A stretch of 38,283 nucleotides of DNA, taken from Planctomycetales bacterium. Its GTDB lineage: Bacteria > Planctomycetota > JAKEIC01. Numbering within the stretch: the stretch's first letter is position 1; the number at the start of each line of letters is the position of its first letter. Positions 8,204-16,613 of this stretch are shown here, piece by piece. Below the pieces are notes generated by a model. The model was not told the origin of the DNA. It searched no databases and worked only from the letters and a program-made list of their open reading frames with translations. The stretch is taken from NCBI GenBank assembly GCA_022614695.1, contig JAKEIC010000001.1, positions 1 to 38,283 of the forward strand, read 5' to 3'. Both the position numbers and the translations under genes were made by a program.

Positions 8204-10324
8204 CTATCGGACGCCCGCCGCTGCACGGGCCTGGGAGAGTGCCTGCTCGACCGCCGCGCGGTGCGGCCAACCGGCTGGAGCGAACTCTAGCGCCTTCACG
8301 AAGTCGGCCGCGGCGCCGGCCGAATCGCCCTGCGCCCACCTGGTGTTGCCGCGGTTGCACCACGCTTTCGCGTACCGCGGGTCCAACTCCAGGGCGCGGT
8401 CGAAGTCGGCGATGGCCCCCCCGAAATCGCCATGCGCCTGCCGGGCGACGCCGCGGTTGTGCCACCCCTCCACGTACTGCGGGGCCAGATCCAGGGCGCG
8501 GCCATAGTCGGCGATGGCCCCTGCGATGTCGCCCTGTGCCTTCCGGGCAATGCCTCGATGGCCCCAGGCCGCCACGTCCCGCGGCCGGCCTCGCAGGGCC
8601 TCCCCGAACGCCGCCGCCGCCCGCCCTGCCTCGCCGGCATGGAGCAGCGCCGACCCCGCCCAGTACCACACGCGCGGGTCCGTGCGGCGTGCGCGGGCCA
8701 ACGCCTCTAGGACGTCTCCTGACGAGGCGAAGTCGCCCCGCGCGTACGCGAGAAGCCCCCGCGCGAACCCCGCCTCGTCCCCCGCCGCTTCCCCGATGGC
8801 CGCGAGGTCGGCCTCCGCCGTGCGCCGATCGTCCCGCAGTGGAGCCGTTCCCTCGCCTCGCGTCTTTCCGATCTCCCCTGCCACCATCCCGCGCGCGTAC
8901 GCCTCCAGTCGCAGCAGCGCCCGCTCAAGCCGCGCCGGGGCGAATCTCGGAGCCACCTCCACCGCCCGGGTGCACCAAGCGAGGGCCTCCGGCGCGTTTC
9001 CTACGTCCCGCCACGCCCGCGCCATTCCCAGGAGCGCCTCGGGCATCTCGGGGTAGGCGCGCAGGGCTTCCTGGAACGCCGTTCGGGCCTCGGCAGCGAG
9101 GGCGTCCCGGTCGGCCACCAGCCAGTCGTCCCGTGCGAGCAGCCGGTCCAGCCGTCCGAGCACCGCGGCGCCGCGGTCCACGTGCGGCTGCGCCGCGAGG
9201 CGCATCTCCGTCTCGCGTGCCCGAGCCTCAAGCGCCGCCCGCTCCCGGGTCTCGGCATCGGCTCGGGCGCGCGCGTCGCTCAGCCAGCGAGGCATGAGGA
9301 GTCCGCCGACGGCCGCGCCCGACGCGGCCAGAACGAGTACGGCCGTGGCTACAGCCGCCTGCCGCTGACGCGCCCAACGTCCCAGGCGCTCCAGCGCCCC
9401 GGGCGCTCGGGCGACGATCCCGTCGCCGCGCAGGAACCGCCCGAGATCGTCGCCGAGTGCCTCCGCGGTTGGGTATCGGCGCGCCGCGTCCTTCTCCAAG
9501 CACTTCGCGACGATGGTGTCCAGGTCTCGGGGGAGTCCCGCGACCATTCTCCCGAGTGGCCTCGGCTCTCGCGTCGCCACGGCGGCAAGCACCTGAATCG
9601 GGGTCTCGCCGTCGAAAGGCATCGCGCCGGAGAGGCACTCGTAGAGCACGACCCCGCACGCCCACACGTCGGTCCGGGCGTCCACCGGGCCCCCCGCGGC
9701 CTGCTCGGGGCTCATGTAATGCGGGGTTCCGAGCACTTGACCGGACTTCGAGAGCCGCGCCGAGCCCTCCACGTCCCGAGCAAGCCCGAAGTCCGCGAGA
9801 AGAGGCTCGCCGTCCTTGTCGAGCAGGATGTTCGCTGGCTTCACGTCGCGGTGGATTACGCCTTGGGCGTGCGCGTGGGTGAGCGCGCGAGCGACCTTCT
9901 CGACGAGCCGGGCGGCGCGGTCGGGGGGTAGCGACTCGCGGTCGAGGAGTGCGGAGAGGCTCTCGCCCTCGATGAGGTCTTGGGCGATCCACGCGACCCC
10001 GTCCGCCTCGCCCGCGGCGTGGACCGCCACGGCGTTCGGGTGCCGCAACCGCGCCGCGACCCGGCCCTCGCGCAAGAACCGCGCCCGGAGGTCCGCCGGG
10101 GCCTCAGCCGGGAGGATCTTGAGCGCGATGTCGCGGCCGAGGGAGGGATCGCGGGCGCGGAACACGACCCCCATCCCGCCTCGACCGAGTTCGCCCAGGA
10201 TGTCGTACGTGCCGAGGCGGGTGCCGGCAACGACGTGTTGACCGGAGCGAGACGGGCGGGCATCGCTCGGGGACGTGCCACCGGCCGCGGTCACGTCGCC
10301 CGGCTTCGGTTCGTCCGAGCCCAT
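8204..10324 (-). CDS. Hanks-type Ser/Thr protein kinase with TM and C-terminal TPR repeats
   Basis: GRGGMGVVF, IALKIL, HRDVKPANILL, DFGLA, GTPHYMSPEQ; TM 'AAVATAVLVLAASGAAVGGLL'; TPRs 'AWGHRGIARKAQGDIAGAIADYGRAL'. Confidence 0.92.
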   Translation of the reverse strand: MGSDEPKPGDVTAAGGTSPSDARPSRSGQHVVAGTRLGTYDILGELGRGGMGVVFRARDPSLGRDIALKILPAEAPADLRARFLREGRVAARLRHPNAVAVHAAGEADGVAWIAQDLIEGESLSALLDRESLPPDRAARLVEKVARALTHAHAQGVIHRDVKPANILLDKDGEPLLADFGLARDVEGSARLSKSGQVLGTPHYMSPEQAAGGPVDARTDVWACGVVLYECLSGAMPFDGETPIQVLAAVATREPRPLGRMVAGLPRDLDTIVAKCLEKDAARRYPTAEALGDDLGRFLRGDGIVARAPGALERLGRWARQRQAAVATAVLVLAASGAAVGGLLMPRWLSDARARADAETRERAALEARARETEMRLAAQPHVDRGAAVLGRLDRLLARDDWLVADRDALAAEARTAFQEALRAYPEMPEALLGMARAWRDVGNAPEALAWCTRAVEVAPRFAPARLERALLRLEAYARGMVAGEIGKTRGEGTAPLRDDRRTAEADLAAIGEAAGDEAGFARGLLAYARGDFASSGDVLEALARARRTDPRVWYWAGSALLHAGEAGRAAAAFGEALRGRPRDVAAWGHRGIARKAQGDIAGAIADYGRALDLAPQYVEGWHNRGVARQAHGDFGGAIADFDRALELDPRYAKAWCNRGNTRWAQGDSAGAAADFVKALEFAPAGWPHRAAVEQALSQARAAAGVR

Positions 10325-10464
10325 GCTCCCCTCGCCCGGACCGCCAGCGTAGGCTCGGCCAGGGGACGGCGCAAGGCGGACGGGTCGCGCTTCCCGTACC
10401 AAGTCCCGGGAGCCGGGACGGCCTCTCGTGCGTCTGTTCTGGTGGACCGATGAAGGAGGTCTCC

Positions 10465-10872
10465 ATGCGGACACGTGACGTGGTCGCGGGGGTCGCGCTC
10501 ATGCTGGCGGCGACCGCGGTCGGGTGTTCGAGCGGGGCCGACGCTCGCGTGGCCGCGCTAGAGGCCAAGGTGGCGGCGCTCGACGCCAAGGTCGCCGCCC
10601 AGGAGAAGGCGCTCGCGGAGCGAGAGCCGTCGGCTCCCTCGGGGTTGCCGCCGGTGTGGCTCCCCGGTGCCTGGACGCCCGGCGCGTGGACTCCCGGCCC
10701 GACGCCGGTGATCGCCACGCCGTACCCTCGGGGGTGGGGTGCCGGGCCGGTCGAGATCCCGTCCCCGAGGATCACCGCCCCCGAACCAGGGCTGACTCGC
10801 GAGCAGTTCGAGGAACTCGTGAAGCGGGTGATCGAGCAGACTCGGCGTGAGGCCGAGGAGCGCGAGAAGTAG
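10465..10872 (+). CDS. Putative lipoprotein with short coiled coil and Pro-rich region
   Basis: MRTRDVVAGVALMLAATAVGCSSG (lipobox-like), then VAALEAKVAALDAKVAAQEKAL. Confidence 0.7.
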   Translation: MRTRDVVAGVALMLAATAVGCSSGADARVAALEAKVAALDAKVAAQEKALAEREPSAPSGLPPVWLPGAWTPGAWTPGPTPVIATPYPRGWGAGPVEIPSPRITAPEPGLTREQFEELVKRVIEQTRREAEEREK

Positions 10873-10990: not shown

Positions 10991-11025
10991 CGCCTCCCCC
11001 GCCCGGATGGTCGCCATAACCCGTT
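10991..11025 (+). repeat. Direct repeat A: CGCCTCCCCCGCCCGGATGGTCGCCATAACCCGTT
   Basis: Matches 11199-11234 with a few mismatches and one indel. Confidence 0.75.
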
Positions 11026-11198: not shown

Positions 11199-11234
11199 CG
11201 CCTCCGCCGGCCCGGATGGTCACCGATAACCCGT
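11199..11234 (+). repeat. Direct repeat B: CGCCTCCGCCGGCCCGGATGGTCACCGATAACCCGT
   Basis: Second copy of repeat A. Confidence 0.75.
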
Positions 11235-11743
11235 CAGGGTGTTGCGGCGGCCGGCGAGGCGTACGTCGCGACCAGGACAGGGATGGCGAACTCCTCGGCG
11301 AGCGGGGTGAAGTCGGCCGGCGCCGGCTTCGTCCGCGCGTCGAACACGCAGCACATCGCCGCGCGGATCCGACCCTCGGCGATCTGCGCCTTGAGTTTCT
11401 CCAAGTCCGCGCGAACCGCGGCGGCCGAGTAGTTCTTGTGGTTGCCGTCGAGCACCGACTTGAACTCGATCGCGAGGTCGAAGTGCTCGGGCTTGCACTC
11501 CGGCGTCCACGGGGTCCGCTCCCAACGCGCCGGGTCGGTCAGGAGCAGGTCGAGCCGCCGGTTCCTCCCCATGCTGGCCTCCAGGTGGACCCACCGCTCG
11601 CCGCCGTCACCGAGCGCGGCGGCGATCCGGCTGGCGACGAGGAACACCATGTCGTGCTCCGACCAAACCAGCGTCGGGTTGGCGCGGCGGTCCGCCGCGA
11701 AGCCGCGCCACGCCTTCGCCACCGTCGCCGCGAGGTCAGGCAA
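11234..11743 (-). CDS. PD-(D/E)XK nuclease-like small protein, third gene of the coupled operon
   Basis: TTG start gives an 8-bp overlap with the upstream gene. 'WVHLEASMGRNRRLDLLLTDP...FDLAIEFKSVLDGNHKNYSAAAVRADLEKLK' has the D...ExK pattern (RLDL / EFK). Confidence 0.65.
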   Translation of the reverse strand: MPDLAATVAKAWRGFAADRRANPTLVWSEHDMVFLVASRIAAALGDGGERWVHLEASMGRNRRLDLLLTDPARWERTPWTPECKPEHFDLAIEFKSVLDGNHKNYSAAAVRADLEKLKAQIAEGRIRAAMCCVFDARTKPAPADFTPLAEEFAIPVLVATYASPAAATP

Positions 11744-13067
11744 GCCCGCCCCCCTCGCTGGGCTCGCCCGACTCCGCTTGGCCGGGTCCCCCGGGCGAAG
11801 CAGGAGGCGGAGGCGGCGGAGGGGCCTCGCCGCCAGCAGCGGACGCCGCAGCCTTCCCCGGCGGCGCATCGGTGAACACGTAGAAGTCCGCCGCGGCGTC
11901 GTCGAACAGGATGCCGATCTTGCCGGTGTCGGTGCGGTAACCGAAGTGCTCCGTGCGCGCGAGGAGATCCACTTCTGGAGCGAGCCGATCGGTCATGCAC
12001 GCCTTCACGTAGTCGACGAACGCCTCGATGTCACGGAGTTCGGCCAGGGCCTGCTCCGGTTCGGCGTGTCTCGCGATGGACCGCACCACGCGGTGCAGGA
12101 AGGGACGCTCATCTGGGAAAAGCGGGATGGTGCCGTCGAACAGGATCCGCTCGACTTCGAGCCGCTTCGGATCGACGTTGCCGTGGAGCCAGTCGTTCCG
12201 CGAGTTCATCACCGTGTGGAACGCCTTGAACTGCGGGGCCGCGGGATCGACAGGCTGCTTGAGTCCCTGGCATGTGATGTGCAGTTCTCGAACTCGCACG
12301 TCGATCTGTCGGCGGACAACGTCTTGGTAGAGTCGCTCATCGGCCCGCACGTCCGGCCGCACGAGCAGGAAGATCACGAGGTTCACGAACGCCTCCGCCA
12401 GGACCGGACACAGCATCCTGATCGAAGTCGCGAGCACCGTTGCCCGTCGTTGCGCGTCCGTCCAACGCCGCATCTCTTTCATGTACGCAGCGTGGACTGC
12501 GGAGGTCGTGACGTGCGGAAGCGGGGTCGGCTCCGACAGATCCAAACTCCGAAGTTCCGTTGCGATGTCGGCAACCGTGCGTTGGACACGGTGGTACGGG
12601 TTGAGTACGAGTGTCCATGCCTCCAGAGTCGCGCGTGCCCCCTTCATCGCCGACCCGGTCCGCTGCAGATCCGATCGAATGGCCTCCATTACCTTGCTTG
12701 CGCCGTCTGCGGCGAGGGGCGCCTTGGTGAGAGCGTGAAACTGGATCCAACTGTTGGTCCCCACCACGTGCAGGACATCATCGCCCGCCGCGACCACGTA
12801 GTCCCACTGGAGCAGGTTGTCCGATCCCGGCCCGCGCACGGCCATGAACGGGCCGTTCGGGGCGCCGAAGCGCGCCTTCAGGTACACGTACAAGACCTGC
12901 GGGGAGAAGGTCCCGTCGTTCATCCAGGATTGGCGAGAGCGACTCGCCATCCCGCCCGGCAGTTCCATCGCGTCGATGGGATTCCCTCGCTGCCATCTAG
13001 CCGGATCGAGGAGTGGAGACACGTTCCCGGGCGTGGGCTCCGCTCCAGCGGGCGGCGAATCGCTCAT
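11736..13067 (-). CDS. Large HEPN-like protein with C-terminal Pro-rich tail, second gene of the coupled operon
   Basis: 'FHTVMNSRNDWLHGNVDPKRLEVERI' (RNDWLH = Rx4H HEPN motif); ATGA overlap with the upstream gene. Confidence 0.65.
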   Translation of the reverse strand: MSDSPPAGAEPTPGNVSPLLDPARWQRGNPIDAMELPGGMASRSRQSWMNDGTFSPQVLYVYLKARFGAPNGPFMAVRGPGSDNLLQWDYVVAAGDDVLHVVGTNSWIQFHALTKAPLAADGASKVMEAIRSDLQRTGSAMKGARATLEAWTLVLNPYHRVQRTVADIATELRSLDLSEPTPLPHVTTSAVHAAYMKEMRRWTDAQRRATVLATSIRMLCPVLAEAFVNLVIFLLVRPDVRADERLYQDVVRRQIDVRVRELHITCQGLKQPVDPAAPQFKAFHTVMNSRNDWLHGNVDPKRLEVERILFDGTIPLFPDERPFLHRVVRSIARHAEPEQALAELRDIEAFVDYVKACMTDRLAPEVDLLARTEHFGYRTDTGKIGILFDDAAADFYVFTDAPPGKAAASAAGGEAPPPPPPPASPGGPGQAESGEPSEGGGLA

Positions 13068-13933
13068 CGCCCGCCCCCCGGCTTCGCGTCGAGATCGTCG
13101 ATCACCTTCCGCAACTCGATGACCTCCAGCGGGCACTCGGGCCAGTCGTGGGTCCAGCACACGACGAGGTCGCAGCCGGAGACTGCGTGGCCGTGCTCCT
13201 GGAAGTTCCGACTACGGAACTCGAACTCGATGCGGACACGCTGCCAGCGGTCCTTCTTCCGATCCACGCACCGCTTGGCCTCGCAGTCGGGGAATGCCGC
13301 GTGGACGGCCTCGACGATGAAGCCCAGGTCGCGCGCCACCATCCCGAACAGGAAGACGACGCCCTGCTCGTTGATCGGCGCGTGGCGCAGGCCCCGGAAG
13401 TCGATCGGGCCGCCGTACTCTGGTCCCGCGCCGCGGGCGTACTCGTGGCCCGGGGGGTGCTGGATCTCGCCGGGCCTGTCGCGATCCGGGGCCTCGTCGG
13501 CCGCGGCGCTCGGCTTGGGTAACGTCTGAAGGATCGGCGATCCGGGTTCTCGGGCGGACAACCACTCGCGGTACTCGCGAAGGAGCGCGTCCTTGCCACC
13601 GAAGTGCTTCTTGAACGTGTCGTCGGAGAACTTGGATCGCGCCGCTAGCACCGGCCATGGCGGCACGCGGCCGACCTCGGCGACGACCCGGTGAAAGTCC
13701 GCGAGCAGTTCCTCGTTGTGCACGGGCTCGTTGTGCATCGGATGACGGCCGAGCCCCGCCGCCGTCCAGAGGGCCGTGTACCCGCCGTCCGGGAACACTC
13801 GGTAGACGTGATGGTCGGAGATCCCCGTGGCGCGGCGGAAGACCGTGCGTGAGAGCACGCCGCCGTTCTCCGCCGCGGCGCGCTTCGCCGCCTCGATCAG
13901 CGAATCCCGGGTCGGCGGTGCCTGCTCGGACAT
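13064..13933 (-). CDS. Homing-endonuclease-associated-repeat protein with PD-(D/E)XK-like C-terminus, first gene of the coupled operon
   Basis: Two repeat units ('GGVLSRTVFRRATGISDHHVYRVFPDGGYTALWTAAGL', 'RVPPWPVLAARSKFSDDTFKKHFGGKDALLREYREWL') and a C-terminal 'VRIEFEFRSRNFQEHGHAVSGCDLVVCWTHDWPECPLEVIELRKVI'. Confidence 0.7.
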   Translation of the reverse strand: MSEQAPPTRDSLIEAAKRAAAENGGVLSRTVFRRATGISDHHVYRVFPDGGYTALWTAAGLGRHPMHNEPVHNEELLADFHRVVAEVGRVPPWPVLAARSKFSDDTFKKHFGGKDALLREYREWLSAREPGSPILQTLPKPSAAADEAPDRDRPGEIQHPPGHEYARGAGPEYGGPIDFRGLRHAPINEQGVVFLFGMVARDLGFIVEAVHAAFPDCEAKRCVDRKKDRWQRVRIEFEFRSRNFQEHGHAVSGCDLVVCWTHDWPECPLEVIELRKVIDDLDAKPGGGR

Positions 13934-15272: not shown

Positions 15273-15521
15273 GCATCGCAACCAGCCTGACCACGCGCGC
15301 AACGCCGAAAGTTGGTGCCCGGCCGGCTTCCGTGCCACCTGCCGGAGTAGGTTCTCGGAGACGATCTCGCGGAACCGGGCGCCGTCAGTTTTCAGCCACG
15401 CCCACACGGCCCGCGCGATCCGGTCGAGGGCCAGCAGTTGCGTTATCCGCGCGCGGCTCACGCCCAAGAGTCGGGAGAGGTCCGCCCGCGAGCGCGCAAT
15501 CCCCTGATCGAGGAGCCGCCG
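15273..15521 (-). pseudogene. 3' fragment of HTH (ParB/KorB-like) gene, no start and no stop at the equivalent position
   Basis: 'RRLLDQGIARSRADLSRLLGVSRARITQLLALDRIARAVWAWLKTDGARFREIVSENLLRQVARKPAGHQLSALRAWSGWLRC' versus the full copy at 18666-19154. Confidence 0.8.
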
Positions 15522-16464: not shown

Positions 16465-16578
16465 TCAGGACTCCCGACCTCCGCGCACCCACCCGCACCA
16501 TGCCCGCAGCGCCGCGAGTTGGTGCGCGGGCGGTTTCCGCGCCACCTGCCGGAGTAGGTTCTCTGACACGATGCCGCG
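16465..16578 (-). pseudogene. Short 3' fragment of the HTH gene with intact stop
   Basis: 'GIVSENLLRQVARKPPAHQLAALRAWCGWVRGGRES*'; similarity to 18666 onward continues through the stop. Confidence 0.8.
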
Positions 16579-16613
16579 GAGAGGGGGCGCAAGGCAGCCG
16601 CGACCGCCGCGGA

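Follow-up and report, generated by a model that had tools for sequence, protein, structure and literature searches.

Whether three overlapping genes that carry nuclease-like motifs form one multi-part defense system, or are independent conflict genes that share an operon, is the question raised by a locus in an uncultured planctomycete. The genes lie on the minus strand of a 38,283-nt stretch of Planctomycetales bacterium DNA, referred to here as the window (GenBank assembly GCA_022614695.1, contig JAKEIC010000001.1, positions 1 to 38,283), which is contig C34 of a draft genome of 4.99 Mb in 369 contigs (88% complete). An initial annotation had described them as a self-contained module that joins a DNA-recognition protein to two nucleases, and its coordinates for the three genes and for their overlaps of 4 and 8 bp proved right.

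Gene 1 (13064-13933, minus strand; 289 aa, ATG start) was called as a modular nuclease from its ORF and coding statistics, a PF18780 repeat, and homologues of the same architecture. Gene 2 (11736-13067, minus strand; 443 aa, ATG start) encodes a HEPN protein of an unnamed family, identified from 67 relatives and a structural model. Gene 3 (11234-11743, minus strand; 169 aa, TTG start) was called from coding statistics and a motif recognized by eye, and would encode a small PD-(D/E)XK-type nuclease. The stop codon of gene 1 and the start codon of gene 2 share the 4 bp ATGA (13064-13067), and the stop of gene 2 and the start of gene 3 share the 8 bp TTGCCTGA (11736-11743). All three genes look coding, with GC3 values of 0.89, 0.80, and 0.94 and codon statistics of 0.317, 0.259, and 0.372 bits/codon for genes 1, 2, and 3, respectively (gene 3 in its TTG form). 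An in-frame ATG upstream of gene 3, at 11869, would yield a 211-aa protein; we rejected this long form and favor the TTG start with its 8-bp overlap, because the added stretch has non-coding codon statistics (-0.09 versus 0.372 bits/codon). A competing 697-aa plus-strand ORF (11436-13529) was likewise rejected as non-coding at 0.006 bits/codon. The overlaps suggest that the three genes are likely to be transcribed together, and promoter and terminator scans found neither element. Short gene overlaps are common in bacterial operons and by themselves do not prove a functional module.

Several other features of the window surround the operon. A gene for a serine/threonine protein kinase with TPR repeats (8204-10474, minus strand) adjoins it. 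An imperfect direct repeat of ~30 nt (GGGTTAT..GACCATCCGGGC) occurs at about 11205-11237, directly past the gene 3 stop, and again ~210 nt beyond, at about 10995-11025; this second copy is the sole match in the genome to the ungapped pattern. A 97-nt direct repeat with 82% identity (15277-15373 and 16484-16580, 1207 nt apart) lies outside the three genes.

Searches for relatives of gene 2, by tblastn and by back-translated patterns, uncovered 67 loci (53 on genome contigs, 5 on plasmids, and 9 on viral contigs), a number that the pattern search makes a lower bound because its candidates had to contain one of two short peptides. These relatives share 25-35% identity over ~350 residues and are distributed among proteobacteria, Nitrospira, Chlorobi, cyanobacteria, a planctomycete, and others. 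Matches in five genomes of the phylum (E ~1e-4), which covered short C- or N-terminal stretches, were left out of the count, and close relatives used as queries against E. coli genomes and phages gave no match. Gene 2 had no match above cut-off in Pfam, NCBIfam, PADLOC, or PHROGs, so that its family is unnamed in all four, and a sequence search of the PDB returned nothing meaningful; family members gave weak Pfam matches to three different HEPN families.

The RNDWLH sequence in which the initial annotation had seen a HEPN motif is well kept in this family. Across 53 aligned sequences, the motif RNDWLHGN (R290, N291, H295; 12177-12200, minus strand) retains R290-N291 in 52 and H295-G-N in 51, and E225, W88, S82-D-N84, E149, N156, and C266 are also nearly invariant. 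An AlphaFold model of gene 2 (41 sequences in the alignment, mean pLDDT 84.5) predicts two parts. An N-terminal alpha/beta domain (residues ~20-155; 12603-13010, minus strand), delimited by the secondary structure of the model and by conserved residues that include Y62, P70-N-G72, S82-D-N84, W88, and E149, is a candidate sensor or regulator. The helical domain that follows (residues 157-370; 11958-12599, minus strand), assigned from the model and from the weak HEPN matches of family members, is entirely helical and of HEPN type: the R290-H295 motif closes helix 278-295, and E225 is placed in the long helix 189-235, as the conserved acidic residue of helix 2. Published criteria for HEPN domains comprise an R-x4-6-H motif that ends helix 3, a polar residue (N, D, or H) after the R, and a conserved acidic residue in helix 2 (PMC3710099). 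By its sequence and its predicted structure, gene 2 agrees with all of these, R290-N-x3-H295 conforming to R-x4-6-H with the polar N291 directly after R290. Foldseek found no significant match to the gene 2 model, N-terminal domain included, in the PDB, where the nearest HEPN protein was the RnlA toxin (6y2p; E = 0.27, TM 0.13), nor among viral structures, where an RNaseLS-like protein gave a weak match (E = 0.54).

The genomic surroundings of gene 2 relatives support a role in conflict or defense for the parts of this locus, as the initial annotation had proposed. In Rhizobium and Agrobacterium plasmids, relatives adjoin the Qat defense system, accompanied in Rhizobium by an ABC-three-component gene. 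A qualitative listing of 128 neighboring proteins from other genomes includes five tyrosine integrases, three resolvases, three Drt4/retron-type RTs, R-M methylases, and Mad2-like and AbiU2 HEPN proteins; by eye, a Fic-type protein, a MutH/Sau3AI-like protein, and a helicase were seen as immediate neighbors. In four Mesorhizobium loci (L050, L053, L054, and L061), the relative lies closely behind or overlaps a conserved 371-aa gene, Fic-type by eye, which is the sole recurrent immediate upstream neighbor and is confined to that genus. Among the viral contigs, one relative (L082) adjoins an integrase with 41% identity to that of phiCTX, and the neighbor in another (L083) is near-identical by eye; a third (L086) adjoins a terminase large subunit gene, with a similar neighbor, again by eye, in L087. 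In L085, the adjoining gene encodes a P2-like portal protein that is 54% identical to portal proteins of Burkholderia phages. P2-like phages have a described anti-phage hotspot in the cos-proximal stretch from gpA to portal gpQ (PMC9122126); because its contig ends, L085 displays only the portal side.

Many HEPN proteins are toxins of toxin-antitoxin systems (PMC3710099, PMC7641770), and gene 2 could on this precedent be a HEPN toxin whose antitoxin is one of its overlapping neighbors, an idea in keeping with the weak resemblances to RnlA and the viral RNaseLS-like protein. Those fold matches are non-significant, however, with TM values <0.2; no recurrent partner gene, small ones included, was found next to gene 2 relatives; and genes 1 and 3 resemble nucleases rather than antitoxins. 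We consider such a pair quite unlikely and rejected it. Because no partner recurs, the gene 2 family behaves instead as one-gene cargo.

Gene 1 combines repeats with a C-terminal domain. The two homing-endonuclease-associated-type repeats reported for it earlier are both present. Repeat 2 (residues 72-126; 13556-13720, minus strand) is the HNH_repeat PF18780, a homing-endonuclease-associated repeat in Pfam, matched over residues 72-113 (E = 2.1e-8); this was the only above-cut-off match of the three proteins in Pfam, NCBIfam, PADLOC, and PHROGs. Repeat 1 (residues ~9-61; 13751-13909, minus strand) is HNH-associated-like: alone it falls below the Pfam threshold, and it was recognized by its alignment with the first repeats of the homologues L115, L117, L122, L124, and L131.

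The C-terminal domain (residues 177-286; 13076-13405, minus strand) was delimited from an AlphaFold model, with pLDDT >90 from residue ~190 to 280, and an alignment of 13 sequences. Its predicted order of elements is that of PD-(D/E)XK nucleases, helix-strand-strand-strand-helix-strand-strand-helix, in which the alpha-beta-beta-beta-alpha-beta core is present (DSSP: helix 189-199, strands 205-210, 217-224, and 229-240, helix 242-246, and strand 256-261). Invariant among the 13 aligned domains are E189, P215-D216, E236-x-E238, H249, D255, and C259-W260; in the window gene and in all 13 aligned sequences, E238 replaces the usual catalytic lysine. Thus, the earlier description of a C-terminal nuclease stands insofar as a PD-(D/E)XK-type fold is predicted, with the amendment that the active site reads E-x-E, not E-x-K. 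A divergent relative, L132 (8130-9002), retains a canonical E-x-K (VELKYK), which supports descent of the gene 1 domain from a PD-(D/E)XK enzyme. A PDB sequence search with gene 1 gave nothing meaningful, and Foldseek gave weak matches of its model to the nucleases Cap4 (0.89) and EndoMS (2.4). Because Foldseek returned no significant PDB match for gene 1 or gene 2, both fold assignments are based on motif and secondary-structure order.

The C-terminal domain of gene 1 was found in the window genome, in 18 other genomes of the phylum (19 of the 292 in total), and on 8 viral contigs. The arrangement of the window gene, repeats followed by the C-terminal domain, recurs in full-length solo form in L115, L120, L122, and L124 and in shorter or divergent form in L117 (shorter, solo), L131, and L132. 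In L126-L130 and L076, the domain is fused to an EVE-like one, whose profile matched PDB entries weakly, including 1zce (E = 0.17) and 2ar1 (E = 0.54), both of which we take to be EVE proteins; Pfam EVE gave a weak match (E = 0.043) to one of nine gene 1 relatives, taken to be L076. In further members, its companion is a zinc-finger, winged-helix, or DUF5655 part. The EVE-like fusions, with their potential for reading modified bases, are candidate modification-dependent nucleases. One further protein (L118, 7587-9266; 559 aa) has two tandem C-terminal domains that have diverged from the family.

Since PF18780 is associated with homing endonucleases, gene 1 might alternatively belong to a selfish homing element on which genes 2 and 3 are passengers. 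Against this, Pfam finds no HNH, GIY-YIG, or LAGLIDADG domain in gene 1, the locus showed no sign of an intron or intein, and in relatives EVE-like or zinc-finger parts take the place of the repeats, a pattern that fits restriction rather than homing. A homing element is very unlikely and was rejected. Because relatives of gene 1 replace the repeats beside the C-terminal domain with EVE-like, zinc-finger, winged-helix, or DUF5655 parts, gene 1 resembles a restriction-type nuclease whose readers can be interchanged.

Gene 3 has the RLDL...EFK sequence noted in the initial annotation, with E29, D65, and E93-F-K95 discernible by eye (EFK at 11459-11467, minus strand, read from the translation). 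Its assignment as a putative small PD-(D/E)XK-type nuclease is a call from this motif. No homologue was detected in plasmids, phages, viral contigs, the 292 genomes of the phylum, or 40 genomes that carry gene 2 relatives; Pfam, NCBIfam, PADLOC, and PHROGs yielded no match above cut-off, and a PDB sequence search nothing meaningful.

Do the three genes then act together? They could work as a single system confined to this lineage, with gene 1 recognizing invading DNA and genes 2 and 3 supplying an RNase and a DNase effector, respectively. The overlaps are tight and leave no gaps, the three catalytic motifs are all intact, and the coding statistics of the genes are alike. A neighborhood search for three-gene co-occurrence, which the initial annotation had named beforehand as a refuting test of its self-contained module, went against it for genes 1 and 2. 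When the 67 gene 2 loci were searched with genes 1 and 3, and the ~28 gene 1 loci with gene 3 and a profile of gene 2, in flanks of ≤8 kb that were often shortened by contig ends, no neighboring pair was found outside the window. Homologues of genes 1 and 2 never turned up near each other, and the overlaps are therefore not conserved. Moreover, an N-terminal domain of their own is conserved in gene 2 relatives, which is what a stand-alone sensor-effector should show. A single system is, on this evidence, unlikely, and we give equally little credence to its specific mechanism, in which engagement of gene 1 with a feature of invader DNA would license the gene 2 HEPN RNase and gene 3 would serve as an additional nuclease effector. 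If true, it would be a dual RNA- and DNA-degrading defense system, built when an operon took in a HEPN protein that otherwise stands alone.

Together, the results indicate that, as no relatives of two of the genes are adjacent, the locus probably brings self-sufficient conflict genes together locally and is not a new three-part defense system; the operon of genes 1 and 2 seen here is most likely lineage-specific. A lineage-specific operon is possible because the class of the window genome has two genomes in our collection, that is, just one other member, and a lineage-specific functional link because gene 3 has no comparable homologue.

The explanation that we favor, and hold to be reasonably probable, is that an uncultured bacterium has, side by side in a single short operon, three conflict genes that are either self-sufficient elsewhere or unique. 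Their activities, triggers, and role in defense we infer as follows. Gene 2 would be a single-protein HEPN ribonuclease of the abortive-infection type, whose N-terminal alpha/beta domain may sense an infection signal and free the R-x4-H RNase to cut cellular or phage RNA. Gene 1, judged by its architecture, would use its two helical repeats to bind DNA and its C-terminal PD-(D/E)X(E/K) domain to cleave it. Gene 3, judged by its motif, may be a PD-(D/E)XK nuclease that is small and acts alone. Co-expression at this locus would follow from the overlaps, which do not mark a conserved three-part system.

What the locus offers is two families without a name, one of HEPN proteins and one with a PD-(D/E)X(E/K) domain, rather than a novel type of system. 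Plasmids and prophages carry the HEPN family, at positions used for defense genes, and four profile libraries lack it; the gene 1 family pairs its nuclease-like domain with DNA-reading parts that can be exchanged (HNH-associated repeats, EVE-like, zinc finger, and winged helix). Both can be tested singly in laboratory E. coli, and the negative co-occurrence result saves effort on a three-gene system for which comparative data offer no support.

Among known enzymes, the restriction endonuclease BamHI typifies an active site of the form PD...E-x-E, in which an acidic residue stands in for the catalytic lysine. Gene 1 shares this acidic substitution, together with a glutamate in the first helix, an analogy unaccompanied by a sequence or fold match. 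Its relatives L126-L130 and L076 are EVE-like fusions, as are the EVE-PD(D/E)XK putative type IV restriction enzymes (PMC7641849), whereas the window gene, in which Pfam finds no EVE domain, differs from these by its HNH-associated repeats and by having E-x-E where they have E-x-K. With the HEPN RNases AbiJ, AbiU2, MAE_28990-type proteins, and RnlA/RNase LS (PMC3710099), gene 2 shares an R-x4-H motif at a helix end with a polar residue after the R, an acidic residue in the preceding long helix, and a defense or mobile-element context. Its family matched none of the named HEPN models above cut-off; like AbiJ or RnlA, gene 2 has an extra N-terminal domain, although this has no significant structural match. 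Likened by description, gene 2 resembles the solo HEPN defense proteins Tha (PMC11087260) and DS-11, which has a CBS domain (PMC13092281), since it too is apparently a single-gene HEPN effector. Tha, which is activated by phage tail proteins, is encoded by a prophage (PMC11087260), as are some relatives of gene 2.
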